From contig NZ_SAIT01000023.1 of assembly GCF_004360145.1 (NCBI RefSeq), forward strand, positions 1-36,089: DNA of 36,089 nt, read 5' to 3'. Every line of letters begins with the position of its first letter. Position 1 is the first letter of the stretch. Below the pieces are notes generated by a model. That model saw only the letters and a list, made by a program, of their open reading frames with translations, did not search any database and was not told the DNA's origin. Both the position numbers and the translations under genes were made by a program. Shown in pieces: positions 3,950 through 24,667 of the stretch. Source of the stretch: Aliiroseovarius marinus (lineage in GTDB: Bacteria; Pseudomonadota; Alphaproteobacteria; Rhodobacterales; Rhodobacteraceae).

Positions 3950-5914
3950 ATGAGCCACGCACATTTCCCGCACCTGTTTTCGCCAATCACCATCGGTGGC
4001 CTGACATTGCGCAACCGGATCGTGTCCACGGGGCACGAAACCCATCTGAACGAGGGTGGCCGCATCGGTGACCGGATGATCGCCTATCACGAAGCTCGCG
4101 CCCGTGGTGGCGCCGGGCTGATCATGACCGAAGTGGCCTTGGTGCATTCCAGAGCCGTTTTCGTGGCCGATCCGATCCGCGTCGACACCGATGATTGCAT
4201 TCCTGGCTATGCCAAGTTGGCCGAGGTGATCCACAGCCATGGCACCGGATTGATTGCCCAACTGTTCCACCCGGGACGCGAGATGCTGGCCTCGGAAGAC
4301 GGCACAGCGCCGGTGTCTTACAGCGCCTCCCCCACCCCGAATGAACGCTTCCATGTGATGCCGCGCCCGATGACGCCCGAAATGGTGGCCGAGGTGATCG
4401 CGGCCCATGGCGATGCGGCAGCACGGATGGCCAAAGCGGGGCTCGACGGGGTCGAGATCGTCGCGTCTCATGGCTATCTTCCGGCACAGTTCCTGAACCC
4501 ACAGGTCAACCAGCGCGACGACGCCTATGGTGGCTCGCTGGACAACCGCACCCGCTTCATTCGGGACATCGCCGCGAACATCCGCACCAAGACCAGCCCG
4601 GGTTTCGTGATTGGCCTGCGCCTGTCGGGCAACGAACTAAGCCATGAGGGGATGGATCAAAGCGCAATGCTGGAGGCCTGCGAGCGGATCGCAGCGGACG
4701 AAGTGATCGACTATTTCAGCGTGGTGGCAGGCTCGTCCGCCACCTTGGCCGGATCGGTCCACATCGCGCCGCCAATGTTCGAAGAGGTCGGCTATACAGC
4801 GCCGCTTGGTCAGGCCATCCGCGAACGCACCGGGGTGACGACCATCGTCACCGGGCGCATCAACCAACCACAGGACGCCGAACGCATCGTCGCCTCGGGG
4901 CAGGCCGATTTGTGCGGCATGACCCGCGCGATGATCTGCGATCCCGAGATGGGCGAGAAAGCACGCGAGGGCCGCATCGACGACATTCGGGCCTGCATCG
5001 GCTGCAATCAGGCCTGTATCGGGCATTTCCACGACGGGTATCCGATCTCGTGCATTCAGAACCCTGTCAGTGGCCGCGAGTTGCAATACGGCACCTTCCC
5101 ACCAGCGCCGTCAAAGCGGCGGATCATGGTCATCGGCGGCGGCCCGGGCGGCATGAAAGCGGCGGCTGTAGCAGCCGCCCGCGGTCACGAGGTTGCCCTG
5201 TTCGAGCGCGACCCACAGCTGGGCGGACAAGCCCGCCTTGCCCAGATGCTGCCGCATCGGGCTGAGTTCGGCGGCATCATCACAAACCTCACCCGCGAGA
5301 TGGAACTGGCCAGTGTCGACATCCGCAAGGGGGTCAGGGTCGACGAAGACGCGATCACCAAGTTCGCCCCGGATGCCATCATCATCGCAACGGGCGCCAC
5401 GCCGCGTTGGCCCGATTTCGAAGGCCGCGACGACGCACATGTCGTCGATGCGTGGCAGGTGTTGCAGGGACAGGTGACTGTCGGAAAGTCGGTCATCGTG
5501 GCCGATTGGCGGGCCGACTGGATTGGGATCGGGGTCGCCGAACTGCTGGCGCAGAACGGCCATTCCGTGAAGCTTGCGGTGAACGGCTATATGCCCGGAC
5601 AGACGATCCAGATGTATGTGCGCGATGCCAGCATCGGCCGGTTGCACGGGCTTGGGGTCGAGATGCTGCCCTACTCGCGCCTGTTCGGCGCGGACGAGGA
5701 CAGCGTTTACCTACAACACATCATGAGCAACGAGGCCGTGATCTGCGAGGATGTCGACACGCTGGTTCTATGTCAGGGTCACACGCCCTCGAATGCTGTC
5801 GAAGACATGGTCCGCAAAATGGGTCTGGAACACCATCTGGTCGGGGACTGCATCGCACCGCGCACCGCCGAAGAAGCCGTTCTTGAAGGTCTACGCGCCG
5901 GGCTTGCTGTCTAG
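3950..5914 (+). CDS. Old Yellow Enzyme/TMADH-type flavin and Fe-S oxidoreductase
   Basis: A 654-residue enzyme with an N-terminal FMN TIM-barrel (about 8-345), a [4Fe-4S] site (Cys349, Cys352, Cys356, Cys368) and a C-terminal Rossmann-type FAD/NAD(P) region (GGGPGG near 396-401). This is the layout of trimethylamine dehydrogenase, 2,4-dienoyl-CoA reductase (FadH) and N-methylproline demethylase. The HGYLPAQF segment (174-181) and DAYGGSLDNR (191-200) are the usual active-site landmarks of the barrel. Electrons would pass from substrate or NAD(P)H through FMN and the cluster. The substrate is not clear: demethylation of an N-methylated compound or reduction of an unsaturated acid/thioester are both possible. 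The XRE-cupin regulator precedes it by 28 bases; the acyl-CoA synthetase follows after a 94-base gap. All expected cofactor residues are present. Confidence 0.85.
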   Translation: MSHAHFPHLFSPITIGGLTLRNRIVSTGHETHLNEGGRIGDRMIAYHEARARGGAGLIMTEVALVHSRAVFVADPIRVDTDDCIPGYAKLAEVIHSHGTGLIAQLFHPGREMLASEDGTAPVSYSASPTPNERFHVMPRPMTPEMVAEVIAAHGDAAARMAKAGLDGVEIVASHGYLPAQFLNPQVNQRDDAYGGSLDNRTRFIRDIAANIRTKTSPGFVIGLRLSGNELSHEGMDQSAMLEACERIAADEVIDYFSVVAGSSATLAGSVHIAPPMFEEVGYTAPLGQAIRERTGVTTIVTGRINQPQDAERIVASGQADLCGMTRAMICDPEMGEKAREGRIDDIRACIGCNQACIGHFHDGYPISCIQNPVSGRELQYGTFPPAPSKRRIMVIGGGPGGMKAAAVAAARGHEVALFERDPQLGGQARLAQMLPHRAEFGGIITNLTREMELASVDIRKGVRVDEDAITKFAPDAIIIATGATPRWPDFEGRDDAHVVDAWQVLQGQVTVGKSVIVADWRADWIGIGVAELLAQNGHSVKLAVNGYMPGQTIQMYVRDASIGRLHGLGVEMLPYSRLFGADEDSVYLQHIMSNEAVICEDVDTLVLCQGHTPSNAVEDMVRKMGLEHHLVGDCIAPRTAEEAVLEGLRAGLAV

Positions 5915-5945: not shown

Positions 5946-5959
5946 TTGATTTGAATCAT
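5946..5959. promoter_or_regulatory. FNR-type box ahead of the acyl-CoA synthetase operon
   Basis: TTGATTTGAATCAT fits TTGAT-N4-ATCAA at 9 of 10 positions. It lies in the 94-base gap between the flavin oxidoreductase gene and the acyl-CoA synthetase start at 6009. I find no good -10 hexamer at the distance expected for class II activation, so function is uncertain. Confidence 0.35.
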
Positions 5960-6008: not shown

Positions 6009-7748
6009 ATGTGCACTATCGGGAAAACACCCGAAGACTGCGCGGTGGCATGCTGGCGCCCGGCTGAACTGGGCGACACGCGCTCGGCGCATGACCTTGG
6101 CCGCGAACTTCTGACTGGGCTACCGGGTGATGCCATCAACATCGGGTTCGAAGCTGTCGACCGTCACGTCGACCAGGGGCACGGCGATCAGATTGCGTTG
6201 GTCTGGCTGTCAAAGACAGACGAGCGCAAGGCGATCAGTTATCGCGAACTTGCCCAGATGTCGTCACGCTTTGCCAACTTGCTACACGCCCATGGGCTGA
6301 CCAAAGGCGCGCGCGTCTTCGTCGCCATCGGCCGTCGGCCCGAGCTGTATGCTGCCGCCCTTGGCACCTTGAAGGCCGGAATGGTCTTCACGCCCCTCTT
6401 TGCCGCTTTCGGTCCCGAACCCATTCGCACGCGGATGGAGATCGGTGACGCGAATGTGTTGGTCACGACGAAGTCTCTCTACAAACGCAAGATCGCCGCG
6501 TGGCGGGACGAGATCCCGTCGCTGCAGTTGGTCCTGATTGTTGGCGATGATGCGCCCGAAGGATGCGTGGCGCTTGGTCCGGCGCTCGACGATGCCTCAC
6601 CCGATTTCCAAGCCGTTCGGACGCAGCCCGAAGACCCTGCCCTGATCCACTTTACGTCGGGCACAACCGGAAAACCGAAAGGCGCGGTCCATGTGCACGA
6701 GGCGGTTCTGTATCACGCGATGTCCGGGCGCTATGCGTTAGAGCTTCAACCCGGCGTGACCTACTGGTGCACCGCCGATCCGGGTTGGGTAACCGGAACC
6801 ACCTATGGGATCATTTCCCCGCTGGTGAACCGCGTGACGATGATCATTGACGAGGCCGAGTTCAACCTCGAGCGCTGGTACGGGATCCTTGAACAAGAAC
6901 GCGTGGCCATCTGGTACTCGGCCCCGACCGCCATCCGGATGATGATGCGCGCGGGCAAAGAAGCCACCAAGGGTTTCGACTTCAGCGCGCTTCAGTTTTT
7001 GGCCAGCGTCGGCGAACCGCTCAACCCCGAGGCCGTGATCTGGTCGCACGAGGTGTTCGGCCTGCCCTTCCACGACAATTGGTGGCAGACGGAAACCGGC
7101 GGCATCATGATCGCCAACACGCGGGCGCAAGACATCAAGCCGGGATCAATGGGCAAGCCCATGCCCGGCATCCACGCGGGCATCGTCGAGAAAGACAATG
7201 GTGGCCTACGCGAACTGGGTGATGGCGAGATCGGCGAGCTTGCGTTGCGTCCCGGCTGGCCCTCGATGATGCGGACCTATCTTCACGAACAAGCGCGCTA
7301 TGACAAATGCTTCCAAGACGGCTGGTACCTGTCCGGCGACCTCGCCATGCGGGATGCGGATGGGTATTTCTGGTTCGTTGGGCGTGCTGATGACTTAATA
7401 AAGTCCTCGGGCCACCTGATCGGCCCGTTCGAGGTCGAAAGTGCGCTGATCGAACATGACAGCGTGGCCGAGGCCGCCGCGATTGGCATCCCAGACGAAA
7501 CAGCCGGGGAAGTCGTCAAAGCCTATGTGACCCTGAACCCCGGCCAGACCCCAAGCGAAGACCTTGAACGTGACATCCGCGGGCTTGCCCGCAAGCGTCT
7601 TGGGGCCGCCGTCGCCCCGCGCGAAATTGTTTTCCGTGAATCTCTGCCCAAAACAAGGTCCGGCAAGATTATGCGTCGGCTGTTGAAAGCGCGTGAACTG
7701 GGCCTGCCCGAGGGCGATATCTCGACATTGGAGGTGGATGAAAAATGA
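6009..7748 (+). CDS. Acyl-CoA synthetase, acetate--CoA ligase-like (AMP-forming)
   Basis: A 579-residue member of the adenylate-forming (ANL) superfamily, activating a carboxylic acid with ATP to an acyl-adenylate and then to acyl-CoA (or onto a pantetheine carrier). The core motifs are intact: [11 protein letters not shown] (phosphate loop), WWQTETGG (the acetyl/propionyl-CoA synthetase-type A5 motif), YLSGDLA, and the hinge/catalytic C-terminal TRSGKIMRR with Lys553, the residue regulated by acylation in Acs proteins. Length fits the short AcsA type rather than the 650-residue Acs. The ATG at 6009 is preceded by GGGAGG (5995-6000). Its stop overlaps the next start (ATGA at 7745-7748), so synthesis is coupled to the E1 enzyme. 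Unlike a housekeeping Acs it sits with E1, E2 and a carrier protein, so its acid and acceptor may be specialised. Confidence 0.87.
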
Positions 7749-9739
7749 CCGCCAAGAAACCCAAACTGGACCACGCCCATGTGCGTCGGCTGCTGCAGGA
7801 CATGATCCGCATCCGCCGTTTCGAAGACAAATGCGCCGAGCTGTACACGCAAGAAAAGATCCGCGGCTTCCTGCATCTCTATGACGGGGAAGAGGCCATC
7901 GCGGCAGGGATCATTCCCTGCCTGACCGCAGAAGATCGCGTCGTGGCCACCTACCGCGAACATGGTCATGCGCTTATGCGGGGCGTCTCGATGTCGTCTG
8001 TCATGGCCGAGATGTATGGCAAGGCCGAAGGCTGCTCGGGCGGGCGTGGCGGGTCCATGCACCTCTTTGATGCGGCAACGAACTTCTATGGTGGGAACGC
8101 CATCGTGGGCGGCGGGCTTCCCTTGGCGACGGGCTTGGCGCTGGCCGATCATATGCGGGGCGACCGCGCGGTCACGGCCTGTTTCTTTGGTGAAGGCGCG
8201 GTGGCCGAAGGCGAATTCCACGAATCCATGAACCTTGCCGCCCTGTGGCAGCTTCCGGTTCTGTTCGTCTGCGAAAACAACGGCTACGCGATGGGCACCG
8301 CGCTGGAACGCTCGGAATCCGAGACTGACATCAGTGCCAAGGCCGCCGCTTATGGCGTCGAGGCGCGCGTGGTCGATGGCATGGATATCGTCGCGGTCGA
8401 AGCCGCAGCGATGCACGCGCTGGACCACATTCGCACCACCGGACAGCCGGTATTTCTGGAATGCCGCACCTATCGCTTCCGCCCGCATTCGATGTTCGAC
8501 GCGCAGCTTTACCGCGACAAGGACGAGGTCGAAACGTGGCGTGCAAAAGGACCCATCGTTAGGTTCCAAACCTGGCTTCTGGTCAACGGGCTGATCCACG
8601 AGGACGAGATCGCCGCGATCGAGGCAGAGGTCGCGGCGGAGATAGACGAGGCCGTCGCATTTGCCGAAGCCGGCACGTGGGAGCCCGTCGAGACGCTGAC
8701 CAAGGACGTCATGGCCCCATCGGCCCCTCCGGCTGAGGTCACGGCGCCTTCGGGCACACTGGTCGACACCACCTATCGCGAAGCCGTACGCGCCGCGATC
8801 TCGGACGCGATGACGCGCGACGAGCGGGTCTTCCTGATGGGCGAGGATGTGGGCGCTTATGGTGGCTGCTACGCGGTGTCGAAGGGCTTGATGGAGACGT
8901 TTGGTCCGGATCGCATCCGCGACACGCCCTTGTCCGAGTCCGGCTTCACCGGGGCAGGCATTGGCGCGGCCTGCGCGGGGATGCGCCCGATTGTCGAATT
9001 GATGACGGTCAATTTCAGCCTGCTGGCGCTCGACCAAATCCTGAACACCGCTGCCACCCTGCGCCATATGTCTGGCGGCCAGTTCGGCGTGCCGGTGGTC
9101 ATTCGGATGGCAACCGGTGCGGGTAAGCAATTGGCCGCCCAGCATTCGCACAGCCTTGAGGGCTGGTATGCCCATATCCCGGGCCTGAAGGTGCTCGCCC
9201 CGGCCACGCTGGAAGATGCGCGCGGAATGTTGTGGACCGCCTTGCAGGACCCCGACCCCGTGCTGATTTTCGAGAACGTGATGCTCTACAACCGGGCTGG
9301 CAAGATCGATGAGAACGCAGGGCCTGTCGACATTTCGAAGGCGGCAATCCGTCGGCCGGGCAAGGACGTCACGCTGATCACGTACGGCGGCTCGCTTTAC
9401 AAAACACTCGACGCGGCAGAGGCGCTTGCGAACGACGGGATCGACGCCGAGGTGATCGACCTCAGATCGCTCCGCCCCTTGGATGACGCGACCATCATGA
9501 CGTCGGTCGCCCGCACCCGCCGCGCGATCATCGTGGACGAGGGCTGGCGTAGCGGATCGTTGGCGGCAGAAATCTCGGCGCGGATCACGGAACAGGTGTT
9601 CTGGACGATGGATGCACCGGTCGGCCGGGTCTGCGCCGCAGAAGTGCCGATTCCTTATCCGAAGCACCTTGAGGATGCCTCGATCCCGCAGGTGCCCGCG
9701 ATAGTCGCGGCGGTGAAAGCAACCATGGGGCGCGGGTGA
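7745..9739 (+). CDS. Fused alpha-beta E1 of a 2-oxoacid/acetoin dehydrogenase complex
   Basis: A 664-residue thiamine diphosphate enzyme in which the alpha and beta chains, usually two genes, are one polypeptide. The alpha part (about 1-320) has the ThDP/Mg motif GEGA (149-152) through ENN (177-179) and the RFRPHSM loop (243-249); a Pro/Ala-rich linker runs about 322-338; the beta part (about 340-664) has GEDVGAYGG and the catalytic-region motif QHSHS (465-469). It would decarboxylate a 2-oxoacid (or cleave an acyloin such as acetoin) and acylate the lipoyl group of the E2 encoded next, one base downstream. The sequence resembles PDH-, branched-chain- and acetoin-type E1s and the substrate cannot be read directly. 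No E3 lies beside it, so housekeeping lipoamide dehydrogenase would be needed. GEGA replaces the common GDGA, a conservative change. Confidence 0.87.
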
Positions 9740-9740
9740 C

Positions 9741-10895
9741 ATGAGTGTCTTTCGAATGCCTTCGCTGGGTGCGGACATGGAAGCCGGAACACTGGTCGAA
9801 TGGCTGATCAAACCGGGGGACGAGGTGCACCGGGGTGATGTCGTCGCCGTCGTCGAAACGCAGAAAGGCGCGATCGAGATCGAAAGCTTTGAGACCGGCA
9901 TTGTGTCCGAGCTGCTTGCCAACATTGGCCAAACCGTTCCAGTCGGCGAAGAACTGGCGCGGTTCGGCACGGAAGACCCCGTGGCAAGCGCCCCTGCCCC
10001 CGAGCCGCTTGAAGCGCCCGCTGTTGTCGCAAAGCCCCATAAGGCAACGCCACAGGCACCCCCTATCCCCACAACGGACACCCGCGCCAGCCCCGCCGCA
10101 CGTCTTGCGGCACAGGAACGGGGGATCGACCTGTCGACCATAGATGGCAGTGGCCCGGATGGGGCAGTTGTGTTGGCGGATGTCGAGGCACAGGCGCAGA
10201 CCACGCCCACAGCCCCACCGACGAAGGGTGGCTTGTCCGAGATGCGCAAGGCCGTGGCCGCCGCGATGGTGCGTTCCAAACGCGAGATCCCGCATTTCTC
10301 GGTTTCGCACAATATCGACACGCAGCACCTGTCGGAATGGCTGAGCGCGCGTAACGCCGACCGCCCGCCCTCCGAACGCGTTTTACTGGGCGCCGCGATC
10401 GTCAAAGCCACCGCGCTGGCGCTACGCTCGGTCAAGGCCTTGAACGGGCACTTCGCCGAAGATGCGTTCATCCTATCGGACGAGATCAATATCGGCGTTG
10501 CCATCGCCTTGCGAGGCGGCGGTTTGGTAGCCCCCGCGTTGCATCAGACCGACACCATGACGCTGGACGAGGTCATGGCCGACATGCGCGACCTTGTCAC
10601 CCGGGCGCGTGCAGGCCGTTTGCGAGGGTCGGAGATGACCCGTGGGACCCTGACCGTCTCCAGCCTTGGCGAAAAAGGGGCCGAGGCGATGACCGGCGTG
10701 ATCTTTCCCCCGCAGGTCGCCCTTCTGGCCGTCGGCGCCCCTCAGATCCGGCCTTGGGTCTCGGGGGATACGGTTGTGCCACGAGAGGTGACACGTTTCA
10801 CGCTCTCTGCCGACCACCGCGTCTGTGACGGGCGGCAAGGGTCCAAATTCCTGACGACCTTAGAAGACATTCTGTCAAAACCGGAGGAGCTATGA
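9741..10895 (+). CDS. Lipoyl acyltransferase E2 component
   Basis: A 384-residue E2 with one lipoyl domain (about 1-78, lipoyl Lys42 in ETQKGA), an Ala/Pro-rich linker, a peripheral subunit-binding domain (about 116-150) and a trimeric CAT-like acyltransferase domain (about 163-384). The catalytic motif DHRVCDG is intact (His359, Asp363). Family role: receive the acyl group from E1 on lipoate and transfer it to CoA. The lipoyl motif ETQKG differs from the usual ETDKA, a pattern I associate with acetoin-type or atypical complexes. It starts one base after the E1 stop and its last codons overlap the acyl carrier protein start (ATGA at 10892-10895), so E2 and ACP are made together, which suggests they work together. 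Confidence 0.88.
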   Translation: MSVFRMPSLGADMEAGTLVEWLIKPGDEVHRGDVVAVVETQKGAIEIESFETGIVSELLANIGQTVPVGEELARFGTEDPVASAPAPEPLEAPAVVAKPHKATPQAPPIPTTDTRASPAARLAAQERGIDLSTIDGSGPDGAVVLADVEAQAQTTPTAPPTKGGLSEMRKAVAAAMVRSKREIPHFSVSHNIDTQHLSEWLSARNADRPPSERVLLGAAIVKATALALRSVKALNGHFAEDAFILSDEINIGVAIALRGGGLVAPALHQTDTMTLDEVMADMRDLVTRARAGRLRGSEMTRGTLTVSSLGEKGAEAMTGVIFPPQVALLAVGAPQIRPWVSGDTVVPREVTRFTLSADHRVCDGRQGSKFLTTLEDILSKPEEL

Positions 10896-11140
10896 CCGAG
10901 CAAGAGATCCGAGACCTTTTTCTGAATGAGATCAATAAGGTCGCCCCTGACATCGACCCAAGCGACGTGTCGGACGACGATCATCTGCAGGATGACCTCG
11001 AGCTCGACTCGATGGACATCCTGAGTCTGGTCACCGCCCTGGACGCGCGGCTGGGCATATCGATCCCCGAGGCGGACTATCCGCAGATTGAAACGCTAAC
11101 CAAAGCGGTTCGGTATCTGGCAGGCAAGCTGGCCGGATAA
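10892..11140 (+). CDS. Stand-alone acyl carrier protein
   Basis: An acidic 82-residue carrier protein with the phosphopantetheine attachment serine in LDSMD (Ser40) and the helix pattern of the PP-binding family. The strong site GGAGG (about 10881-10886) inside the end of the E2 gene and the ATGA overlap support translational coupling. It is not the housekeeping AcpP: that protein normally lies in fab clusters and has the DSLD motif, whereas this one has DSMD and differs throughout. In this setting it may be loaded by the upstream acyl-CoA synthetase-like protein or accept an acyl group from E2. That partner assignment is inference from gene order. Confidence 0.85.
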   Translation: MTEQEIRDLFLNEINKVAPDIDPSDVSDDDHLQDDLELDSMDILSLVTALDARLGISIPEADYPQIETLTKAVRYLAGKLAG

Positions 11141-11292: not shown

Positions 11293-12627
11293 ATGACCGA
11301 AATCCTACTTCGAAATGCCGACACCATCCTGACGATGGATGACACAAGGACCGAGCTGTCGGGCGCGGATATCCGCGTGCGCGATGGTGTTATCACCGAG
11401 ATCGGCACCGGACTGACAAGCAACGGCGACATCCATGACGCGCGTGGATGCGTGGTGACGCCCGGGCTGGTGAACACGCACCATCACCTCTATCAAACCC
11501 TGACCCGCGCGGTGCCGGGCGGACAGGATGCTTTGCTGTTTGGCTGGCTTCAGACGCTCTATCCAATCTGGTCCCGTTTTGGTCCGGAAGAGATGTTTAT
11601 CTCGGCCCAAGTCGGGCTGGCCGAACTGGCGCTGTCCGGATGCACGCTCAGCTCTGATCACCTGTATCTCTACCCCAATGGCGCGCGCCTTGATGACACA
11701 ATCGCTGCCGCGCAAGAGGTTGGGCTGCGCTTCCACCCGACGCGCGGGTCGATGAGCATCGGAGAAAGCGACGGAGGGTTGCCCCCGGACAGTCTGGTCG
11801 AGAAGGAAAGCGCCATTCTGGAGGACTCGATCCGCGTGGTCGATGCCTTCCACGATCCCCGCGAGGGCGCGATGGTGCGTGTGGGTCTGGCGCCGTGCTC
11901 GCCATTTTCTGTCAGCCGAGACCTCATGCGCGACGCCGCCCTGCTGGCGCGGGACAAGGGCGTCATGCTGCATACCCATCTGGCCGAAAACGACGAAGAC
12001 ATTGCCTATTCGCTCGAAAAATTCGGCTGCCGCCCCGGTCAATATGCCGAGGACCTTGGCTGGACCGGCGACGACGTCTGGCACGCCCATTGCGTGAAAC
12101 TGGATGGGCAAGAGATTGACCTCTTTGCCCGCAGCAAGACCGGTGTTGCGCACTGCCCGTGCTCGAACTGCCGGTTGGGCAGCGGGATCGCGCCGGTGCG
12201 TCAGATGCGCGATGCGGGTGTGCCGGTGGGGCTGGGTGTCGATGGATCCGCCAGTAATGATGCGGGGAACCTGATCTTGGAAGCGCGGCAATCCATGCTG
12301 TTGCAGCGCGTCGCAAATGGGGCAGACGCCATGTCTGCCCGCGAAGCGCTTGAGATCGCAACCCGGGGCGGCGCAGATGTTCTAGGGCGCCGTGATTGCG
12401 GACGGCTTGCTGTGGGCAAACGGGCGGACATCGCGGTTTGGGACGTGTCCGGTATCGAAAGCGCAGGTAGCTGGGATCCCGCCGCCCTGCTTCTTGCCGG
12501 TCCAACGCGGGTCAAACATCTGTTCGTCGAAGGGCGGCAGATCGTGCGGGATGGCCACATGACGACCGTAGACTTGCCCAAAGTGATCGAGCGCCAAAAC
12601 CAGATGGCCTTGACGCTCCAGACGTAA
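11293..12627 (+). CDS. 8-oxoguanine deaminase-like amidohydrolase
   Basis: A 444-residue metal-dependent hydrolase of the AtzF/TrzN/guanine deaminase (amidohydrolase) superfamily. The metal-binding HxH is at 63-65 (NTHHHLYQTL), with later ligand regions LHTHLAEN, AHCVKLD and the aspartate motif GVDGSASND. The NTHHHLYQTLTRAVP and SDHLYLYPNGA stretches closely resemble the Pseudomonas 8-oxoguanine deaminase group (product urate plus ammonia); hydroxyatrazine-type hydrolases (AtzB) are related, so substrate is assigned by similarity only. The ATG at 11293 follows AAAGGGG. It is probably transcribed from its own promoter in the 152-base gap, although read-through from the carrier protein gene is possible. 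It converges on the acyl-CoA dehydrogenase gene. Confidence 0.78.
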   Translation: MTEILLRNADTILTMDDTRTELSGADIRVRDGVITEIGTGLTSNGDIHDARGCVVTPGLVNTHHHLYQTLTRAVPGGQDALLFGWLQTLYPIWSRFGPEEMFISAQVGLAELALSGCTLSSDHLYLYPNGARLDDTIAAAQEVGLRFHPTRGSMSIGESDGGLPPDSLVEKESAILEDSIRVVDAFHDPREGAMVRVGLAPCSPFSVSRDLMRDAALLARDKGVMLHTHLAENDEDIAYSLEKFGCRPGQYAEDLGWTGDDVWHAHCVKLDGQEIDLFARSKTGVAHCPCSNCRLGSGIAPVRQMRDAGVPVGLGVDGSASNDAGNLILEARQSMLLQRVANGADAMSAREALEIATRGGADVLGRRDCGRLAVGKRADIAVWDVSGIESAGSWDPAALLLAGPTRVKHLFVEGRQIVRDGHMTTVDLPKVIERQNQMALTLQT

Positions 12628-16304: not shown

Positions 16305-17003
16305 TTACTCCGCAGGGTTTGCAGGTTTCTGACGGCGCGAACGCACCACCTGATAGCCGGGACGCCAGATATAGCGCACGGGCACCGACAGCATGTGCAC
16401 CAGTCGGGTGAACGGGAAGACAAGGATAATTGTCAGCCCAAGGAACAGGTGCAGTTTGAAGACCCACGACACGTCCGCGATATAGCTGGCAGCCGCACCA
16501 TCAAAGGTGAAGATCCCCTGTGCCCAGGACATGAACTTGACCATCTCGTGCCCGTCCAGGTGACCCAGCGAGACGAAGATCGTGCCAAGGCCCAGCACCA
16601 GTTGCGCCAGAAGCATGCCCAGAATGGCAATGTCCCAGAAGCTCGAGGTCTGGCGGATGCGCGGATCAGTCCAGCGACGGTGGAACAGCATACCGCCGCC
16701 CACCAGCGCCATGACGCCTGCGATGCCACCGGCAACAACGGCCAGAAGTTGTTTCGCGCCGTGGCTGATGCCCATTGCGTCGAAGATCCAGATCGGAGTC
16801 AGAAGACCGATGAGATGGCCGAAGAAGATGACCAGAACGCCAACATGGAACAGGATCGAGCCCATCACCAGCTGCTTGCGACGCAACATCTGGGAAGACG
16901 AGGTTTTCCAGGTGAAAGGATCGCGGTCATAGCGCGCGATGCTTCCCATGATCCCCACGCCCAAGGCGATATAGGGGAAGATTCCAAAGAAGAAATTATG
17001 CAT
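16305..17003 (-). CDS. narI: Respiratory nitrate reductase gamma subunit (cytochrome b)
   Basis: The membrane diheme cytochrome b of NarGHI, oxidising quinol and passing electrons to NarH. Five transmembrane helices are visible in 232 residues. Candidate heme ligands are His53 and His63 (FHVGVLVIFFGH) and histidines in the last helix (FKLHLFLG and RLVHML). I chose the ATG at 17003 because GGAGG lies at 17013-17009 with a five-base spacing and the protein then begins MHNFFFGIFPYIAL, aligning with NarI; an alternative ATG at 17018 overlaps the narJ stop in an ATGA. Either way translation is coupled to narJ. Confidence 0.94.
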   Translation of the reverse strand: MHNFFFGIFPYIALGVGIMGSIARYDRDPFTWKTSSSQMLRRKQLVMGSILFHVGVLVIFFGHLIGLLTPIWIFDAMGISHGAKQLLAVVAGGIAGVMALVGGGMLFHRRWTDPRIRQTSSFWDIAILGMLLAQLVLGLGTIFVSLGHLDGHEMVKFMSWAQGIFTFDGAAASYIADVSWVFKLHLFLGLTIILVFPFTRLVHMLSVPVRYIWRPGYQVVRSRRQKPANPAE

Positions 17004-17014
17004 TTCCGCCTCCA

Positions 17015-17731
17015 TCATTCCGCAGCCACGCCGGGGGCGCGGGCTGCTGTGTCTGATTTGGGTTCATCCATGCGCGCCAGCATGTCGCGCACTTGTGGGC
17101 AACCGGCGTTGGGATCGGGGCCGAAGCGGACTTCGCTTTCCTCCCAGATCTCGTCCAGTGCCTCCAGATCGTTTGGATCGACCTCGGGCTGTTCCAGCAA
17201 CTCGGCCACGGCTTCTTTGTCGGCTTTTACGCCAGAAAGCTGCAACAAAGCGGCGAACACGGCAGCATATGGGCTGTCACGTCGAGCCAGTCGTTCACTC
17301 AACGCCTCCAGAATATGCGCCGCGTCCGCCAGGGTATCCTGTCCCTCGGCATAGGGACGCGTGGACAGGAATTCCAACAGAACAGGCAGGTGGTCGGGCA
17401 GTTCGCTCGACACCGGATCGAACCCGGCCTCGCGATACATCTCGACCAGCGACACCATCGCCCCGCCCCGATCGCGGCTTTCGCCGTGAACATGTTCAAA
17501 CAGGTTCAGCGACAAAGTGCGCGAGCGGTCGAAGAGCAGCACATACTGCTCTTCCAGGTCATAAATGTCCTGCGTGCCCAAGGCATCAACCAAGGGCCGC
17601 AGGTCGCGCCGGGCAGCCGCCGTCAGACGGCTGTCCGATGCCAGCACCGCGCCGATTTCCGGCATGGCCTGCTGCAGTTCGCGAGTGGGGTAGCTTAGAA
17701 CCAGCGAGATGGCTTTAAAGGTACGGTCCAT
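17015..17731 (-). CDS. narJ: Nitrate reductase molybdenum cofactor assembly chaperone
   Basis: A 238-residue acidic helical protein of the TorD/NarJ family, which holds the NarG apo-subunit while the molybdenum cofactor and Fe-S cluster are inserted. It is not part of the final enzyme. The N-terminus (KAISLVLSYPTRELQ) and the core segment SLNLFEHVHGESRDRGGAM are typical of NarJ. The start codon shares one base with the narH stop (TAATG) and its own stop overlaps the upstream candidate start of narI, as in other narGHJI operons. Confidence 0.93.
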   Translation of the reverse strand: MDRTFKAISLVLSYPTRELQQAMPEIGAVLASDSRLTAAARRDLRPLVDALGTQDIYDLEEQYVLLFDRSRTLSLNLFEHVHGESRDRGGAMVSLVEMYREAGFDPVSSELPDHLPVLLEFLSTRPYAEGQDTLADAAHILEALSERLARRDSPYAAVFAALLQLSGVKADKEAVAELLEQPEVDPNDLEALDEIWEESEVRFGPDPNAGCPQVRDMLARMDEPKSDTAARAPGVAAE

Positions 17732-19254
17732 TACATCACCTCCGACGGCATTTTCAGGGCTTTCTTGGCACCGCCAAACAGCGAGGCCTTGGACGTTCCA
17801 CCGGAACAGCCATTGGTGTCGGTGAAGCCGCAGCCGCCGCGCAGATCGTAAGCGTCTTCGACTTGTTCACGGTGTGTGGTCGGGATCACGAAACGGTCTT
17901 CGTAGTCAGCCAAGGCCATGATTTTATACATGTCCTCGATGGTGCGACCCGACAGACCGACGCGCTGCGCCAGACCCTCGTCCGTCACGCCCTCGATGGT
18001 TTTCGATCGCATGTAGGCCCGCATCCCCAGCATCCGCTCCAACGCTGTGACCACGGGGGCTTCGTCGCCGGCGGTCAGCATGTTGGCCAGATACTTCACC
18101 GGGATCCGCAGGTTCTGGACGTCGGGCATTGCGCCGTCGGTGCCGATTGCACCTGCTTCGGCTGCGTTCTGGATCGGGCTGAGTGGCGGGATATACCAGA
18201 CCATCGGAAGGGTGCGATATTCGGGGTGCAGCGGGAAGGCTACTTTCCACTCCATCGCCATCTTCCAGACCGGGCTTTCTTGAGCTGCCTTGATCCAATC
18301 CTGCGGAACACCGTCGCGCGCTGCGGCGGCAATCACCTCGGGATCATTCGGGTCAAGGAAGACACCCAGCTGTGCGTCATAAAGATCGGTGGTGGCTTCC
18401 GCATTCGCGGCTTCCTCGATCTTGTCGGCATCATAGAGCATCACACCCAGATAGCGGATCCGGCCCACGCAGGTTTCCGAACAGACGGTCGGATTGCCGC
18501 TTTCGATACGCGGATAGCACAGGGTGCATTTCTCGGACTTACCGGTCGACCAGTTATAGTAGACCTTTTTGTAAGGACAGCCCGAGACACACATCCGCCA
18601 ACCGCGACACTTCTCTTGGTCGATCAGAACGATGCCGTCTTCCTCGCGCTTATAGATCGCGCCCGAGGGACACGAAGCCGCACAGGCCGGGTTCAGGCAG
18701 TGTTCGCACAGACGGGGGAGATACATCATGAAGGTGTTCTCGTATTCCCCGTAGATCTGCTTTTGCACACCTTCGAAGTTGTAGTCTTCACCACGTTTCG
18801 AGAACTCGCCGCCCAGGATTTCTTCCCAGTTCGGTCCCTTTTCGATCTTCTCAATCCGTTCGCCAGTGATCTTGGAACGCGGGCGTGCGGTCGGGAAGGC
18901 CTCCATTTCGGGGGCCGACTTCAGGTGGTCATAGTCGAAATCGAACGGCTCATAGTAGTCGTCGATCTCGGGCAGGTCGGGGTTGGCGAAGATATTCGCC
19001 AAGATCCGCCATTTCGACCCCTGTTTGGGCTGCAACTTGCCCGATTTGGTGCGTTCCCAGCCACCGTTCCAACGTGCCTGGTTTTCCCAGTCGGTCGGAT
19101 AGCCGGTACCCGGTTTGCTTTCCACGTTGTTGAACCATGCATATTCAACACCATCGCGCGAGGTCCAGACGTTCTTACACGTCACAGAGCAGGTGTGGCA
19201 CCCGATACATTTATCAAGGTTCAACACCATGCCGATTTGAGCACGTACCTTCAT
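17731..19254 (-). CDS. narH: Respiratory nitrate reductase beta subunit
   Basis: The 507-residue iron-sulfur electron-transfer subunit between NarI and NarG. Four cysteine groups are present: CIGCHTCSVTC at 16-26, CEHCLNPACAASCP, CRGWRMCVSGCP and the CTLC/CSETC group. Trp instead of Cys in CRGWRMC is the known NarH feature that yields a [3Fe-4S] cluster, so three [4Fe-4S] and one [3Fe-4S] centre are expected. It is cytoplasmic and bound to NarG. The ATG overlaps the narG stop (ATGA at 19254-19251) with GAGGCAG upstream. Confidence 0.96.
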   Translation of the reverse strand: MKVRAQIGMVLNLDKCIGCHTCSVTCKNVWTSRDGVEYAWFNNVESKPGTGYPTDWENQARWNGGWERTKSGKLQPKQGSKWRILANIFANPDLPEIDDYYEPFDFDYDHLKSAPEMEAFPTARPRSKITGERIEKIEKGPNWEEILGGEFSKRGEDYNFEGVQKQIYGEYENTFMMYLPRLCEHCLNPACAASCPSGAIYKREEDGIVLIDQEKCRGWRMCVSGCPYKKVYYNWSTGKSEKCTLCYPRIESGNPTVCSETCVGRIRYLGVMLYDADKIEEAANAEATTDLYDAQLGVFLDPNDPEVIAAAARDGVPQDWIKAAQESPVWKMAMEWKVAFPLHPEYRTLPMVWYIPPLSPIQNAAEAGAIGTDGAMPDVQNLRIPVKYLANMLTAGDEAPVVTALERMLGMRAYMRSKTIEGVTDEGLAQRVGLSGRTIEDMYKIMALADYEDRFVIPTTHREQVEDAYDLRGGCGFTDTNGCSGGTSKASLFGGAKKALKMPSEVM

Positions 19255-22200
19255 TCTGCTGCCTCCTTATTCGGGGTCGCTTCACGGTCGAGCCAGTCAA
19301 CCTTCTTCATCTTGCGCACCACGACGAATTCATCGCGGTTCGCACCAACGGTGCCGTAGTAGTTGAAACCGTAAGATTGCTGGGCATAGCCGCCGATCAT
19401 GTGAGTGGGCTTCAGCGTCGCACGCGTGACCGAGTTGTGAATGCCGCCGCGTTTGCCGGTCTTCTCAGACCCGGGCGTGTTCACGATTTTCTCTTGCGCA
19501 TGATACATGAAGGTCGTTCCGTCCTTCATCCGCTGACTGACAACCGCACGGGCCGTCAGGGCGCCGTTCGAGTTGTAGAGCTCGACCCAATCGTTATCGA
19601 CAATACCTGCCGATTTCGCATCGTTTTCCGAGATCCAGATCACCGGGCCCCCGCGGTTCAGCGTCAGCATGTGAAGGTTGTCGGAATAGGTCGAGTGGAT
19701 ACCCCATTTCTGGTGCGGCGTGATGAAGTTCAGCACCACATGCGGCCAGTCTTTCTCGCTATGCACCTCGTCGGTAATCGTTTTCAGGTCGACGGGGGGG
19801 CGATAGGACAGGAAGCCTTCACCGAAGGCCAACATCCACTGGTGATCCTGATAGGTCTGTTGACGACCCGTCAGGGTCCGCCACGGGATCAGTTCGTGCA
19901 CGTTGGTGTAGCCCGCGTTATAGCAGACCTCTTCACTTTCCAGACCCGACCATGTGGGCGACGAGATGATCTTGCGGGGTTGCGCGGCGATGTCGCGGAA
20001 CCGGATCTTTTCGTCTTCCTTCGGCTTGGCCAGATGGGTGTGATCACGACCGGTTGCTTTGGACAGGCTGTCCCAAGCTTTGACAGCAACCTCGCCGTTG
20101 GTTTCCGGCGCCAGCATCAAGACGACCTCAGTCGCATCAATGTCGGTCACGATCTTCGGCTGACCCTTGGCGGGGCCGTCCTCGTGCACGCCATTCAGTT
20201 CGCGCAGGTGCTGCACTTCGTGCTTGGCGTCGACCATGATGCCTTTACCGCCATTCCCCAGCTTGTCCAGAAGCGGACCAAGGGCCACAAAGCGGTCATA
20301 GATCGCGGTATAGTCGCGTTCCACCGGCACATAGTTCGGCGCGGTCTTGCCCGGAATAAGGTCACATTCGCCCTTCTTCCAATCCCGCACCTGATCCTGC
20401 GCCAGCTCACCCGGGGTGTCATGCAGAAGCGGCACCTGAACGATATCCGTCTCCACACCCAGAATTTCCGGGGCAACTTCCTGGAACTTGTGGGCGATGG
20501 ACTTGAAGATCTCCCAGTCCGACTTGCTTTCGTAAGCCGGGTCCACGGCCGCCTGAAGCGGGTGGATGAACGGGTGCATGTCCGAGGTGTTCAGGTCATT
20601 CTTTTCGTACCACGAGGCCGTGGGCAGAACGATGTCCGAATAGACCGCAGTGGTCGACATGCGGAAGTCCAGCGTGACCAACAGGTCCAGCTTGCCTTCG
20701 GGCGCATCCTCGTGCCACTTGGCTTCTTTCGGAAGCTGCGCGCCTTCTTCCCCAAGATCCTTGCCCAGAACACCGTGATCGGTGCCCAAGAGGTGCTTCA
20801 GGAAGTACTCGTGCCCCTTGCCCGACGAACCCAGCAGGTTCGAGCGCCAGACAAACAGGTTGCGCGGCCAGTTTTCCGGTGCATCCGGGTCCTCGCAGGA
20901 CATTTCCAGATCGCCAGATTTCAGCTGCTGCGCCACATAGGCAGGGATTTCCATGCCCGCGTCTTTAGCCTGTTTGGCCACCTCCAGCGGGTTGGTTTTC
21001 AGCTGCGGTGCCGACGGCAACCAGCCCATGCGTTCTGCACGGATGTTGAAGTCGATCATCGAGGCATCCCAGTCACCTTCCGGTGCGGTGGGCGACACGA
21101 TCTCGCTTGCGGTCAGGGTCTCGTAACGCCACTGATCCGAATGCGCATACCACATCGAGGTCGAGTTCATGTGACGCGGCGGACGGCCCCAATCGAGCGC
21201 GAATGCCAGCGGCAACCAACCGGTCTGCGGACGCAGTTTTTCCTGACCCACATAGTGGGCCCAACCGCCGCCGGACTGACCGACACAGCCGCACATGATC
21301 AGCATGTTGATCACGCCGCGATAGTTCATGTCCATGTGGTACCAGTGGTTCATCGCAGCGCCGATGATGATCATCGACTTACCGTTGGTCTTCTCGGCGT
21401 TCTGCGCGAATTCACGGGCGACGTGGACGATCTTGTCAGCGGATACGCCGGTGATCTTCTCGGCCCAGGCGGGGGTGCCCGGCACGTCTTCGTTATAGTC
21501 CTTGGCAACCCAGTCGCCGCCCAGACCACGATCCAGGCCATAGTTGGCGCAGAACAGGTCAAAGACAGTGGCCACGCGGATCACGCCATCTTTGGTCTGA
21601 ACTTCGCGGATCGGAATGTTGCGGGTCAGAACGTCAGGACGGTCATCGCCGGTCGAGAACTGCTCGGTCGCGCCAGCACCGAAATAGGGGAAGTCCACGC
21701 CAGCAACGCGATCATGGTCGCCATCGCCGATCAGCGTCATTTTCAGATCGGTGTCGGATTTGTTGGCGCGTTCTTCGAGGTTCCATTCCCCGTCTTCGCC
21801 CCAGCGATATCCGATCGAGCCGTTGGGCGCGACCAGACCACCGGATTTTTCATCCAGAGCAACGGTTTTCCATTCCGGGTTATTGTCTTCACCCAGTTTG
21901 CCGTCCAGATCGTCAGCACGCAGGAAGCGGCCAGGAACCAGCTTGCCGTTCTTGTCTTCCAGCTTCACCAGCATCGGGAAGTCGGAATACTTGCGGCAAT
22001 AATCCTCGAAATACTCGACTTGGTTATCCAAGTGGAATTCGCGCAGGATCACGTGGCCAAAGGCCATCGCCAGTGCGGCGTCGGTACCCTGTTTGACGTT
22101 CAGCCAGACGTCGCCAAATTTGGCGGCTTCCGAATAGTCGGGGCAGATGACGGCGGACTTGGTGCCGCGGTAACGCGCCTCGGTATAGAAGTGCGCATCA

Positions 22201-22988
22201 GGCGTCCGCGTTTGCGGCACGTTCGAGCCCCAGAGCAGCAGATAGCCAGCGTTGTACCAGTCAGCCGATTCCGGCACGTCGGTCTGTTCACCCCATGTCA
22301 TGGGCGAGGCCGGCGGAAGGTCACAATACCAGTCATAGAAGGATCCGCAGACCCCGCCAATCAGGCTCAGGTAACGCGCACCAGCGGCATAAGAAATCAT
22401 CGACATGGCCGGGATGGGCGAAAAGCCGATCACGCGGTCGGGGCCGTATTTCTTGGCGGTGTAGGCGTTGGCGGCGGCGGTAATCTCGGTCGCTTCATCC
22501 CAGCTTGCGCGGACAAAGCCACCCTTACCGCGGGTCTTTACATACGAGTCGCGCAGGATCGGGTCGTTCTGGATCGCGGTCCAGGCCTCGATCGGCGACA
22601 TGGTCTGGCGCATCCGGCGCCATACTTTCATCAGACGTCCACGGACCAGCGGGTTCTTCACGCGGTTCGCGGAATACAGATACCAGCTGTAGGACGCACC
22701 ACGGGCACAGCCGCGCGGTTCGTGGTTGGGCAGATCAGGGCGCGTACGCGGGTAATCGGTCTGTTGGGTTTCCCAAGTGACGATCCCGGATTTCACGTAG
22801 ATCTTCCACGAACACGATCCGGTACAGTTCACCCCGTGGGTCGAGCGCACAACTTTGTCGTGGCGCCAGCGATTCCGATAGGTGTCCTCCCAGTCGCGGT
22901 TTTCGTTGGTCACTTGGCCGTGACCGTTAGAAAACTGTTCCAGTTCTTTGGACTGGAAGAAGTTCAGTCTGTCGAGCAGGTGGCTCAT
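19251..22988 (-). CDS. narG: Respiratory nitrate reductase alpha subunit
   Basis: The 1245-residue catalytic subunit, reducing nitrate to nitrite on a bis-MGD molybdenum centre on the cytoplasmic face of the membrane. The FS0 [4Fe-4S] ligands are present as His51, Cys55, Cys59 and Cys94, the His-type ligand set known from NarG. The molybdenum ligand Asp is at 223 (YCDLPPASP). Length matches the family. No functional Tat signal remains, consistent with cytoplasmic NarG. AGGAGA precedes the ATG at 22988. A long open frame on the other strand over this gene is a coding shadow. It is the third gene of the operon, after two nitrate/nitrite transporters. Confidence 0.97.
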   Translation of the reverse strand: MSHLLDRLNFFQSKELEQFSNGHGQVTNENRDWEDTYRNRWRHDKVVRSTHGVNCTGSCSWKIYVKSGIVTWETQQTDYPRTRPDLPNHEPRGCARGASYSWYLYSANRVKNPLVRGRLMKVWRRMRQTMSPIEAWTAIQNDPILRDSYVKTRGKGGFVRASWDEATEITAAANAYTAKKYGPDRVIGFSPIPAMSMISYAAGARYLSLIGGVCGSFYDWYCDLPPASPMTWGEQTDVPESADWYNAGYLLLWGSNVPQTRTPDAHFYTEARYRGTKSAVICPDYSEAAKFGDVWLNVKQGTDAALAMAFGHVILREFHLDNQVEYFEDYCRKYSDFPMLVKLEDKNGKLVPGRFLRADDLDGKLGEDNNPEWKTVALDEKSGGLVAPNGSIGYRWGEDGEWNLEERANKSDTDLKMTLIGDGDHDRVAGVDFPYFGAGATEQFSTGDDRPDVLTRNIPIREVQTKDGVIRVATVFDLFCANYGLDRGLGGDWVAKDYNEDVPGTPAWAEKITGVSADKIVHVAREFAQNAEKTNGKSMIIIGAAMNHWYHMDMNYRGVINMLIMCGCVGQSGGGWAHYVGQEKLRPQTGWLPLAFALDWGRPPRHMNSTSMWYAHSDQWRYETLTASEIVSPTAPEGDWDASMIDFNIRAERMGWLPSAPQLKTNPLEVAKQAKDAGMEIPAYVAQQLKSGDLEMSCEDPDAPENWPRNLFVWRSNLLGSSGKGHEYFLKHLLGTDHGVLGKDLGEEGAQLPKEAKWHEDAPEGKLDLLVTLDFRMSTTAVYSDIVLPTASWYEKNDLNTSDMHPFIHPLQAAVDPAYESKSDWEIFKSIAHKFQEVAPEILGVETDIVQVPLLHDTPGELAQDQVRDWKKGECDLIPGKTAPNYVPVERDYTAIYDRFVALGPLLDKLGNGGKGIMVDAKHEVQHLRELNGVHEDGPAKGQPKIVTDIDATEVVLMLAPETNGEVAVKAWDSLSKATGRDHTHLAKPKEDEKIRFRDIAAQPRKIISSPTWSGLESEEVCYNAGYTNVHELIPWRTLTGRQQTYQDHQWMLAFGEGFLSYRPPVDLKTITDEVHSEKDWPHVVLNFITPHQKWGIHSTYSDNLHMLTLNRGGPVIWISENDAKSAGIVDNDWVELYNSNGALTARAVVSQRMKDGTTFMYHAQEKIVNTPGSEKTGKRGGIHNSVTRATLKPTHMIGGYAQQSYGFNYYGTVGANRDEFVVVRKMKKVDWLDREATPNKEAAE

Positions 22989-23011
22989 CTGATTTCTCCT
23001 AGGTTGGCTGG

Positions 23012-23038
23012 CCTACCCCGGCACGGGGCCGGGATAGG
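23012..23038 (-). ncRNA. Intercistronic RNA hairpin between narK2 and narG
   Basis: CCTACCCCGGC (23012-23022) and GCCGGGATAGG (23028-23038) form an 11-bp stem with one mismatch around a five-base loop in the 62-base gap. There is no U-tract on the minus strand, so it is more likely to set segmental mRNA stability or partial read-through between transporter and enzyme genes than to terminate fully. Confidence 0.55.
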
Positions 23039-23050
23039 CGGGCGTGCATA

Positions 23051-24667
23051 TCAGGGGTTCTTCACGTAGGCGCCGGGGCGCAGGTAGAACCACCAGTTGA
23101 TGGCGATGCAGACCGCATAGAAGATCGCGAAGCCGTACAGTGCGTATTCAGGCGTTCCGGCCTTCAGCTGTTCACCAAACACTTTGGGGATGATGAATGC
23201 GCCGTAAGCAGCAACCGCAGCGGTCCAACCCAGAGCAGGACCAGCCTGTTCTTTGTTGAACACCATCGCGATGGTGCGGAAAGTCGAGCCATTGCCGATA
23301 CCCGTTGCGGCGAACAGGATCAGGAACAGACCCAGGAACGGGTAGAAGTATTGTTCCGGAGTTGCCGACGAATAGGCCTGCTGGATGAAGTAGGCGACAC
23401 CCAGTGCCGAGGCGACCATGACGACCGAGATAATCTGGGTCACTTTCGCGCCACCGGCTTTGTCAGCCCACATACCACCCAGCGGACGGATCAGAGCGCC
23501 GATGAATGGGCCCATCCAGGCAAACATCAGGGCCGACGGGCCGTTGGGGTTTACCATGTCGTGGGTCATCACACCGTCAACCTCGACGTGGCTGAAGCCG
23601 AACACAACTTTGATGGTCAGTGCCAGAGCGGCCGAGTAGCCGATGAACGAACCAAAAGTCATGGTGTAGATGATCGTCATGGCCCAAGTGTGCTTGTTGC
23701 CAAAGATCTTGTACTGGCGGCTCAGGTTTTGACCGACAGCACCGGGGATCATTTTCAGACCCAGCACGGTCAGGGCGATAACGATCGGCAAAACGATCCA
23801 TTTCGATACACCCATGCCCGACGTCGGCAGACCACCTTCCGTGCCCGGCAGCAGCAGCCACAGGCCAAAGGCAGCGGTGATGAAACCGATCAGCAACATG
23901 CCCGAGATCGTGGCGAATGCGCCAAGCGGGTTGGGGATGTTCGGCGAGACGTGCTCGTCACGGATGTTGTTCATCCCCATCCAGCCAATGATCGCCAGCG
24001 GGATCAGGAAGACCAGCCAGATCAGGCCAGCGTTCTGGATGTAAGTCTCGGTTCCGGCAGGGATTTTACCGATCAGCGTACCCGAGGTGTTCACCAGCGT
24101 GCGGCTTTCGCCACCGAAGATACCCATGGTCATCGCCAGCGGGATCAGGATCTGCATGGTGGTCACACCGAAGTTCCCCAGACCCGCGTTCATACCCAGG
24201 GCGTAGCCCTGAATTTTCTTCGGGTAGAAGAAGCTGATGTTCGACATCGAGGACGAGAAGTTACCGCCGCCGATACCCGACAGGAAGGCCAGGATCTGGA
24301 AATACCACAGAGGCGTATCGGGGTTCTGCAGCGCCAGACCAGCACCAGCAGCCGGGATCATCAGAAGTGCTGTGGTGAACACAATGGTGTTTCGGCCACC
24401 CGCGATCCGGATAAAGAAGGTCGACGGAATACGCAGTGTTGCACCGGTCAGACCAGCGATTGCGCCCAGCGTAAACAGGTCGGATTTTGCAAACTCGAAG
24501 CCCAGATTAAGCATCTGAACAGTGATGATGCCCCAGTACAGCCAGACAGCAAAGCCGCACAGCAGGCTGGGAATGGAAATCCACAGATTTCGGTTGGCAA
24601 TGGACTTACCGGTGGACGCCCAGAAGGCCTCATCATCCGGTGTCCAGTTTCTTAGATCTTGTCCCAC
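23051..24667 (-). CDS. narK2: Nitrate/nitrite transporter, NarK2 type
   Basis: A 538-residue major facilitator protein with about 12 membrane helices, resembling E. coli NarK/NarU from the first residues (NWTPDDEAFW, ANRNLWISIPSLL). Both nitrate signature segments are visible (SMSNISFFYPKKIQGYALGMNAGLGNFG and a second GIGNGSTFRTIAMVF). The family exchanges cytoplasmic nitrite for periplasmic nitrate in anaerobic respiration. Translation begins at GTG (24667-24665) with GAGGAGG at 24680-24674. It lies between the NarK1-type gene and narG in the same orientation. In Paracoccus the two types are fused in one protein; here they are separate genes in the same order. Confidence 0.92.
   Translation of the reverse strand: MGQDLRNWTPDDEAFWASTGKSIANRNLWISIPSLLCGFAVWLYWGIITVQMLNLGFEFAKSDLFTLGAIAGLTGATLRIPSTFFIRIAGGRNTIVFTTALLMIPAAGAGLALQNPDTPLWYFQILAFLSGIGGGNFSSSMSNISFFYPKKIQGYALGMNAGLGNFGVTTMQILIPLAMTMGIFGGESRTLVNTSGTLIGKIPAGTETYIQNAGLIWLVFLIPLAIIGWMGMNNIRDEHVSPNIPNPLGAFATISGMLLIGFITAAFGLWLLLPGTEGGLPTSGMGVSKWIVLPIVIALTVLGLKMIPGAVGQNLSRQYKIFGNKHTWAMTIIYTMTFGSFIGYSAALALTIKVVFGFSHVEVDGVMTHDMVNPNGPSALMFAWMGPFIGALIRPLGGMWADKAGGAKVTQIISVVMVASALGVAYFIQQAYSSATPEQYFYPFLGLFLILFAATGIGNGSTFRTIAMVFNKEQAGPALGWTAAVAAYGAFIIPKVFGEQLKAGTPEYALYGFAIFYAVCIAINWWFYLRPGAYVKNP

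Follow-up and report, generated by a model that had tools for sequence, protein, structure and literature searches.

A candidate low-oxygen variant of pyruvate dehydrogenase with a dedicated carrier protein as its proposed acetyl acceptor

CitC and MadH, the acetate:acyl carrier protein ligases of citrate lyase and malonate decarboxylase, use ATP to load acetate onto a carrier protein; they are paired with a lyase or a decarboxylase rather than with E1 and E2 enzymes. Scleric acid and related products contain glycolyl units that are proposed to arise through E1-type subunits, a lipoyl acyltransferase and an acyl carrier protein (ACP), as set out in the available part of PMC6335953. Here, we describe a four-gene cassette of Aliiroseovarius marinus (contig NZ_SAIT01000023.1, positions 1 to 36,089, the whole of which we call the window) that encodes an acetate ligase, a pyruvate dehydrogenase (PDH)-type E1, a lipoyl E2 and an ACP. 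The ligase would resemble CitC and MadH in function. With a probability of roughly 0.45, we read the cassette as a low-oxygen PDH variant in which the acetyl acceptor would be the dedicated carrier protein and the ligase would link acetyl-ACP with acetate. The cassette and its promoter box are laid out as follows.

5946..5959, no strand: FNR/FixK-type box TTGATTTGAATCAT, consensus TTGAT-N4-ATCAA with 1 mismatch, 49 bp upstream of the ligase start codon
6009..7748, + strand: AcsA-type AMP-forming acetate ligase, short form, 579 amino acids (Pfam/NCBIfam AMP-binding, PRK04319)
7745..9739, + strand: PDH-type E1, alpha and beta fused, 664 amino acids (Pfam/NCBIfam E1_dh, Transket_pyr and Transketolase_C)
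9741..10895, + strand: lipoyl E2, 384 amino acids (Pfam/NCBIfam Biotin_lipoyl, E3_binding and 2-oxoacid_dh)
10892..11140, + strand: dedicated ACP, 82 amino acids (PP-binding; Ser40 in ELDSMD)

An earlier note, made from the sequence alone, had described these as four translationally coupled genes with intact active sites. The open reading frames and their overlaps are confirmed: the genes run head to tail, joined by an ATGA overlap, a 1-nt gap and a second ATGA overlap. The landmarks K553 (ligase), K42, H359 and D363 (E2) and S40 (ACP) lie where the note had placed them, and the thiamine diphosphate (ThDP) motif is likewise present, with the refinement that the window reads GEGA rather than GDGA. 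The fused E1 divides into an alpha part (~1-323) and a beta part (~342-664), and the E2 consists of a lipoyl domain carrying K42, a peripheral-subunit binding domain (115-149) and an acyltransferase core carrying H359 and D363. Two of the proteins score above curated cut-offs, the ligase against PRK04319 (acetate-CoA ligase, NF003313; 846 bits, cut-off 729), which places it in the AcsA family, and the E1 alpha part against TIGR03182 (445 bits, cut-off 394). Other contigs of the source genome (33 contigs in all) encode three E2s and additional E1s, which we take for the housekeeping PDH and 2-oxoglutarate dehydrogenase (OGDH). It also encodes carrier proteins besides that of the cassette, including an 80-amino-acid protein on contig 4 that is probably the ACP of fatty-acid synthesis.

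The four-part set recurs widely. A contig scan found at least 595 stretches, of which 572 were confirmed; the best 80, together with the window and seven plasmid loci, make up an 88-locus set. Among the best 80, the closest relative of the window cassette was found in an uncultured Aliiroseovarius, with an E2 90% identical. The ACP adjoins the E2 in all 88 loci, and ligase, E1, E2 and ACP are all present in 80 of them; six of the eight incomplete loci start at or near a contig end. E1 is fused in 42/88 loci and split in 43/88. Six phyla are represented among the 80 contig loci, of which Pseudomonadota contribute 69, and several of the loci from other phyla are single metagenome-assembled genomes in which misbinning is possible. 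Related E2s also occur in 34 plasmid records, with identical gene order in the first seven read and also in B. savannae and Tropicibacter.

This set was picked by likeness to the cassette E2s, a selection that tells against its counts, so genomes drawn without that choice were searched as well. An E2 profile applied to 398 Pseudomonadota genomes left a clear gap, with 14 genomes at or above 416.8 bits and the rest at or below 291 bits; the ACP was present in 12/12 fetched loci above the gap and in 0/6 below it. At the level of the order, 39/292 genomes had a match at E <= 1e-60, and an ACP stood at 27 of the 29 loci fetched besides the window, nine weaker matches being left unfetched. From these two draws we chose 38 regions of 16-20 kb (the 38-region set, which omits G048, G154, G156 and G243 of the 29 order-level loci), and 36 of them hold complete cassettes. 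Across 200 Pseudomonadota genomes, only 7 proteins exceeded the NF003313 cut-off, all encoded just upstream of a cassette E1-E2. The conserved co-occurrence proposed in the earlier note is thus borne out, and the recurrence of the four-part set is more than chance. The carrier protein itself is well preserved at its attachment site: Ser40 is found in 25/25 aligned cassette ACPs, in 22 of them within DSMD, and the window ACP is 30-68% identical to those aligned.

A few loci depart from the pattern. In L104, counted among the 80 complete loci, the order is E1a-E1b-ligase-E2-ACP, with the ligase after E1. The E2 of L059 and the ligase of L105 are each read as two pieces, and both loci were counted complete. 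L045, from Paracoccus salsus, has an E2 and an ACP with no recognisable E1 or ligase in ~9 kb upstream, and is perhaps a decaying copy.

We examined the likely substrate through the E1 alpha sequences. In a tree built by a quick method without bootstrap from 33 of 84 cassette rows, 32 of the 33 formed one clade (Shimodaira-Hasegawa-like approximate likelihood ratio test [SH-aLRT] 96) that joined the housekeeping PDH sequences (98) and stood separate from the acetoin and branched-chain E1s compared. The remaining row, that of L104, attaches outside the clade on a long branch, and its E1 may have been swapped. The ThDP motif across 85 cassettes reads GEGA in 59 and GDGA in 26; it is GDGA in 14/14 housekeeping PDH E1 alphas. 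Given this placement, we infer that the cassette E1 is of PDH type and uses pyruvate. Acetoin or another acyloin, which the earlier note had offered as a possible acyl source, is rejected by the tree, a result that concerns the alpha part; a resemblance of E1 beta to acetoin E1 had been noted at first.

The same tree bears on the possibility that the cassette loads a ketose-derived glycolyl unit onto the ACP, the route put forward for QncN/QncL/QncM and SclQ1-4. The parts lists match, since E1-type subunits, a lipoyl-domain E2 and an ACP are encoded together in both, according to the available part of PMC6335953. By that description, which is the basis of the comparison, these systems belong to natural-product clusters, a ketose donor is proposed and an acetate ligase goes unmentioned in the part available (PMC6335953). 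The cassette E1 alpha is instead nearest to PDH, an acetate-type ligase lies alongside in 80/88 loci, and no peptide-synthase cluster is annotated around the cassette in the records examined; the two are set apart by description, and we regard a glycolyl product as very improbable. NapB/NapD (Peng 2012) is reportedly a further glycolyl-ACP system. The chemistry of QncN/QncL/QncM would nonetheless offer a precedent for transfer from an E2 to an ACP.

The evidence that points to a changed acceptor comes from the two enzymes that handle acetyl groups, the first of which is the E2. In a tree of 30 of the 104 cassette E2s, a branch with SH-aLRT 100 separated all 30 cores from all 29 comparators, among them E. 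coli AceF and E2s of the PDH, OGDH, branched-chain 2-oxoacid dehydrogenase (BCKDH) and acetoin types, so that the sampled cassette E2s lie outside the PDH E2 clade. At position 201, Arg is found in 37/37 comparators, which cover PDH- and OGDH-type, BCKDH and acetoin E2s and E. coli AceF (30 are canonical E2s, often closely related to one another, and 7 are additional), and is replaced by Leu, Ile, Val or Met in 104/104 cassettes; the window has Leu. PDH and OGDH E2s share coenzyme A (CoA) and not the acyl group, so the loss of an Arg common to both points to the acceptor, and we infer that it reflects a changed one. The catalytic residues are retained, His359 in 104/104 cassette E2s and the Asp of DHRxxDG in 100/104. 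A fold search with a single-chain model of E2 plus ACP returned 2-oxoacid dehydrogenase E2s as all of the 50 best matches listed. The second Asp of the motif is lost in two Leisingera plasmid loci (L034, L035) and in S. fredii (L036), which read DHRVSGG or DHRVSHG.

Taken together, the cassette shares with the PDH complex its domain order, the ThDP, lipoyl and His-Asp active sites and the nearest E1 alpha clade. It differs in its separate E2 clade, the loss of Arg201, the nearly always adjoining ACP and the acetate ligase within the operon, and none of the 88 loci encodes an E3. Because its E2 falls outside the PDH clade, we file the cassette under the 2-oxoacid dehydrogenase kind and not as a member of PDH.

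The second enzyme is the ligase. Cassette ligases share with the AMP-forming acetyl-CoA synthetase AcsA (PRK04319; solved structure 9g79) the family score, the catalytic Lys (K553 in the window) and the acetate-pocket residues, which we take to be V261, T262, V334 and W359 in the window. Three Arg residues, 191, 526 and 584, are important for CoA in S. enterica acetyl-CoA synthetase (Acs), according to the available part of PMC10455477. The equivalent of Arg526, which belongs to the thioester step, is Leu in 76 and Met in 2 of 78 cassette ligases (L470 in the window); Arg occupies the site in 22/23 of the long Acs and also in 9g79, a 572-amino-acid synthetase that is the nearest chain in the PDB. 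At this residue, then, the cassette ligases depart from AcsA. Its replacement in AcsMt (Arg528Ala) gave an enzyme that could not be saturated with CoA, again as given in the part of PMC10455477 available. The Arg191 site was ambiguous in our alignment. Residue 530, which is Glu in 23/23 of the long Acs, is Arg or Lys in 70/78 cassettes, a change that would accommodate an acidic carrier protein.

The box upstream of the ligase would link the cassette to low oxygen, a connection that goes beyond what the earlier note saw. Scanning 250 bp upstream for TTGAT-N4-ATCAA with at most one mismatch, we found the box at 14/36 cassettes of the 38-region set and 19/78 of the 88-locus set versus 4/277 control promoters (p ~1e-11 and 2e-10), where the two cassette sets overlap in species, the 78 come partly from other taxa than the controls, and the control promoters are noisy, having been placed in control regions of the drawn genomes simply by taking the longest ORF. 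None of 14 housekeeping PDH genes had a box. Box density was doubled in cassette regions (67 versus 32 in ~750 kb each, p 0.001). We think it likeliest that the cassette is switched on by an FNR/Crp-type regulator at low oxygen.

With a PDH-type E1, a changed E2, an ACP and a changed ligase, the simplest reading would be that both enzymes meet at acetyl-ACP. E1 would decarboxylate pyruvate on ThDP and acetylate the lipoyl arm of E2, as its family and retained motifs suggest. The E2 core would then pass the acetyl group to the ACP phosphopantetheine, a step suggested by the nearly 1:1 linkage of the two genes and by the loss of an Arg kept in all CoA-type E2s compared; we give this acetyl-ACP step slightly better than an even chance. 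The substitutions in both acetyl-transferring enzymes thus support the earlier proposal that an acyl unit is placed on the carrier protein, with a 2-oxoacid rather than an acyloin as the fitting source. AcsA would connect acetyl-ACP with acetate, ATP, AMP and pyrophosphate (PPi).

The dihydrolipoyl group would be reoxidised by a shared E3, which we propose since none is encoded nearby: an E3 gene was found in 0/88 loci, and in the 38-region set at 1/38 cassettes versus 1/38 control regions, counts that cover the neighbourhoods only. E3 is often common to several complexes. The lack of an E3, which had been raised as a distinguishing feature, therefore holds at the loci and is a weak argument.

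We are least sure of the direction in which the ligase works. The likeliest use would be a closed route that takes pyruvate through acetyl-ACP to acetate, where a ligase working in reverse would yield ATP; that the ligase forms ATP from acetyl-ACP in this way is doubtful, and the alternative direction would be salvage of acetate onto the ACP. The full extension of this idea, a CoA-free, ACP-bound fermentation in which, under oxygen shortage, a reversed acetate:ACP ligase turns AMP and PPi into ATP, we consider unlikely. Beyond these four genes none is constant, the most frequent non-core family occurring in 20/88 loci, so the four may suffice on their own.

This same absence bears on whether, at low oxygen, acetyl-ACP might instead be a building block for fatty acids, lipids or storage compounds, with the ligase working toward acetyl-ACP. 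A Sulfitobacter SK012 plasmid (L038, 195-3597) has FabI, a fusion of enoyl-CoA hydratase and phosphate acetyltransferase (Pta), and AckA a few kb upstream of the cassette, and FabI-like genes occur at 4/88 loci. Those genes were found in 0/38 cassette versus 2/38 control regions, however, and no synthase family is constant, given that the largest non-core family reaches only the 20 loci above. Such a biosynthetic role is distinctly unlikely.

Several observations weigh against an acetyl-ACP-forming PDH variant under low-oxygen control. A contact of E2 residue 201 with CoA could not be shown, and a literature search found no paper on its role. Position 175 (Arg to Ala in 100/104 cassettes) was dropped as a decisive CoA-site argument because that site is not universal among the comparators, being Asn in E. 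coli AceF and Lys in BCKDH. The single-chain model of E2 and ACP had a predicted template modeling score of 0.54, from which docking cannot be judged. In the ligase, the Arg584 equivalent R528, which touches the CoA 3'-phosphate in Acs, is kept in 78/78 cassettes and argues for some binding of CoA. Glu is not a general feature of residue 530, where 9g79 has Gly. For S. enterica Acs, Arg526 variants lost catalysis only ~2-fold in the available part of PMC10455477. Loci L045 and L081 are without a ligase despite room upstream, and L045 is also without E1. Two drawn genomes, G124 (L220) and G215 (L253), keep E1-E2 without an ACP. Within the 88-locus set, the box stood at 19/78 cassettes versus 66/365 other promoters (p 0.13), and exact boxes at 1/78 versus 15/365; with two mismatches allowed the counts were 42/78 versus 112/365 (p 0.0001). 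The presence of boxes at other promoters near cassettes implies that they mark the whole neighbourhood as well as the cassette.

These points raise the question as to whether the cassette is an ordinary auxiliary PDH beside an ordinary acetyl-CoA synthetase, both yielding acetyl-CoA at low oxygen, with the ACP as an accessory or assembly factor. The AcsA and E1 alpha scores above curated cut-offs, the universal R528 and His359 and the ACP-less E1-E2 pairs of G124 and G215 all agree with it. Such an arrangement would leave unexplained the loss of Arg at both E2 201 (104/104) and ligase 470 (78/78), and an ACP linked as tightly as the enzymes are. Of these two, only G124 has enough upstream sequence to judge, and it is also without the ligase, whereas the G215 contig ends just upstream of E1, where a ligase cannot be judged; the losses hint that ligase and ACP function as a pair. 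We consider the ordinary arrangement improbable, if a serious competitor, and favour transfer to the ACP.

No paper describing the cassette was found in the open library searched, subscription papers and supplements being beyond its reach. The earlier suggestion of an undescribed system holds to that extent and needs qualifying, as related E1, E2 and ACP chemistry is already known from QncN/QncL/QncM (PMC6335953, available part). The annotated records examined label the cassette genes acsA, pdhA and E2, and these names mean that the cassette has been taken for ordinary acetyl-CoA metabolism. If the reading proposed here is true, metabolic models built on such annotation would be wrong, and a widespread branch of a textbook complex, with a protein replacing CoA, would belong to the regulons that marine, soil and rhizobial bacteria use at low oxygen.

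The surroundings of the cassette vary. Stress-island genes (universal stress protein [USP], Hsp20, CBS, PpsA, DUF2267, P-type ATPase, baeRF) lay near 19/38 cassettes versus 7/38 controls (p 0.004), and an unrelated ABC gene was found in 17 cassette and 14 control regions. Among single families, P-type ATPase alone was significant (7 cassette versus 0 control regions, p 0.006), followed by PpsA (6 versus 1, p 0.054) and USP (6 versus 2, p 0.13). The first annotated records had suggested that a stress-island neighbourhood was a universal trait; with half of the cassettes elsewhere, that idea was rejected. Stress-gene neighbours recall the low-oxygen islands (lxa of Burkholderia and the OsdR/DevR regulon), a likeness that holds for the 19 cassettes above and not for the other half. 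The available passages on these islands make no mention of the cassette.

In the window, the cassette is flanked by two enzyme genes, and a nitrate respiration cluster, in which narI is followed by a gene for a NifM/PpiC-type isomerase, lies 5 kb downstream.

3950-5914: OYE/FadH-type flavoenzyme, nearest to the mycofactocin OYE-2 family and below its cut-off
11293-12627: 8-oxoguanine deaminase
16308-24667, - strand: narK-narGHJI nitrate respiration cluster
26246 and 26360: FNR-like boxes, one mismatch

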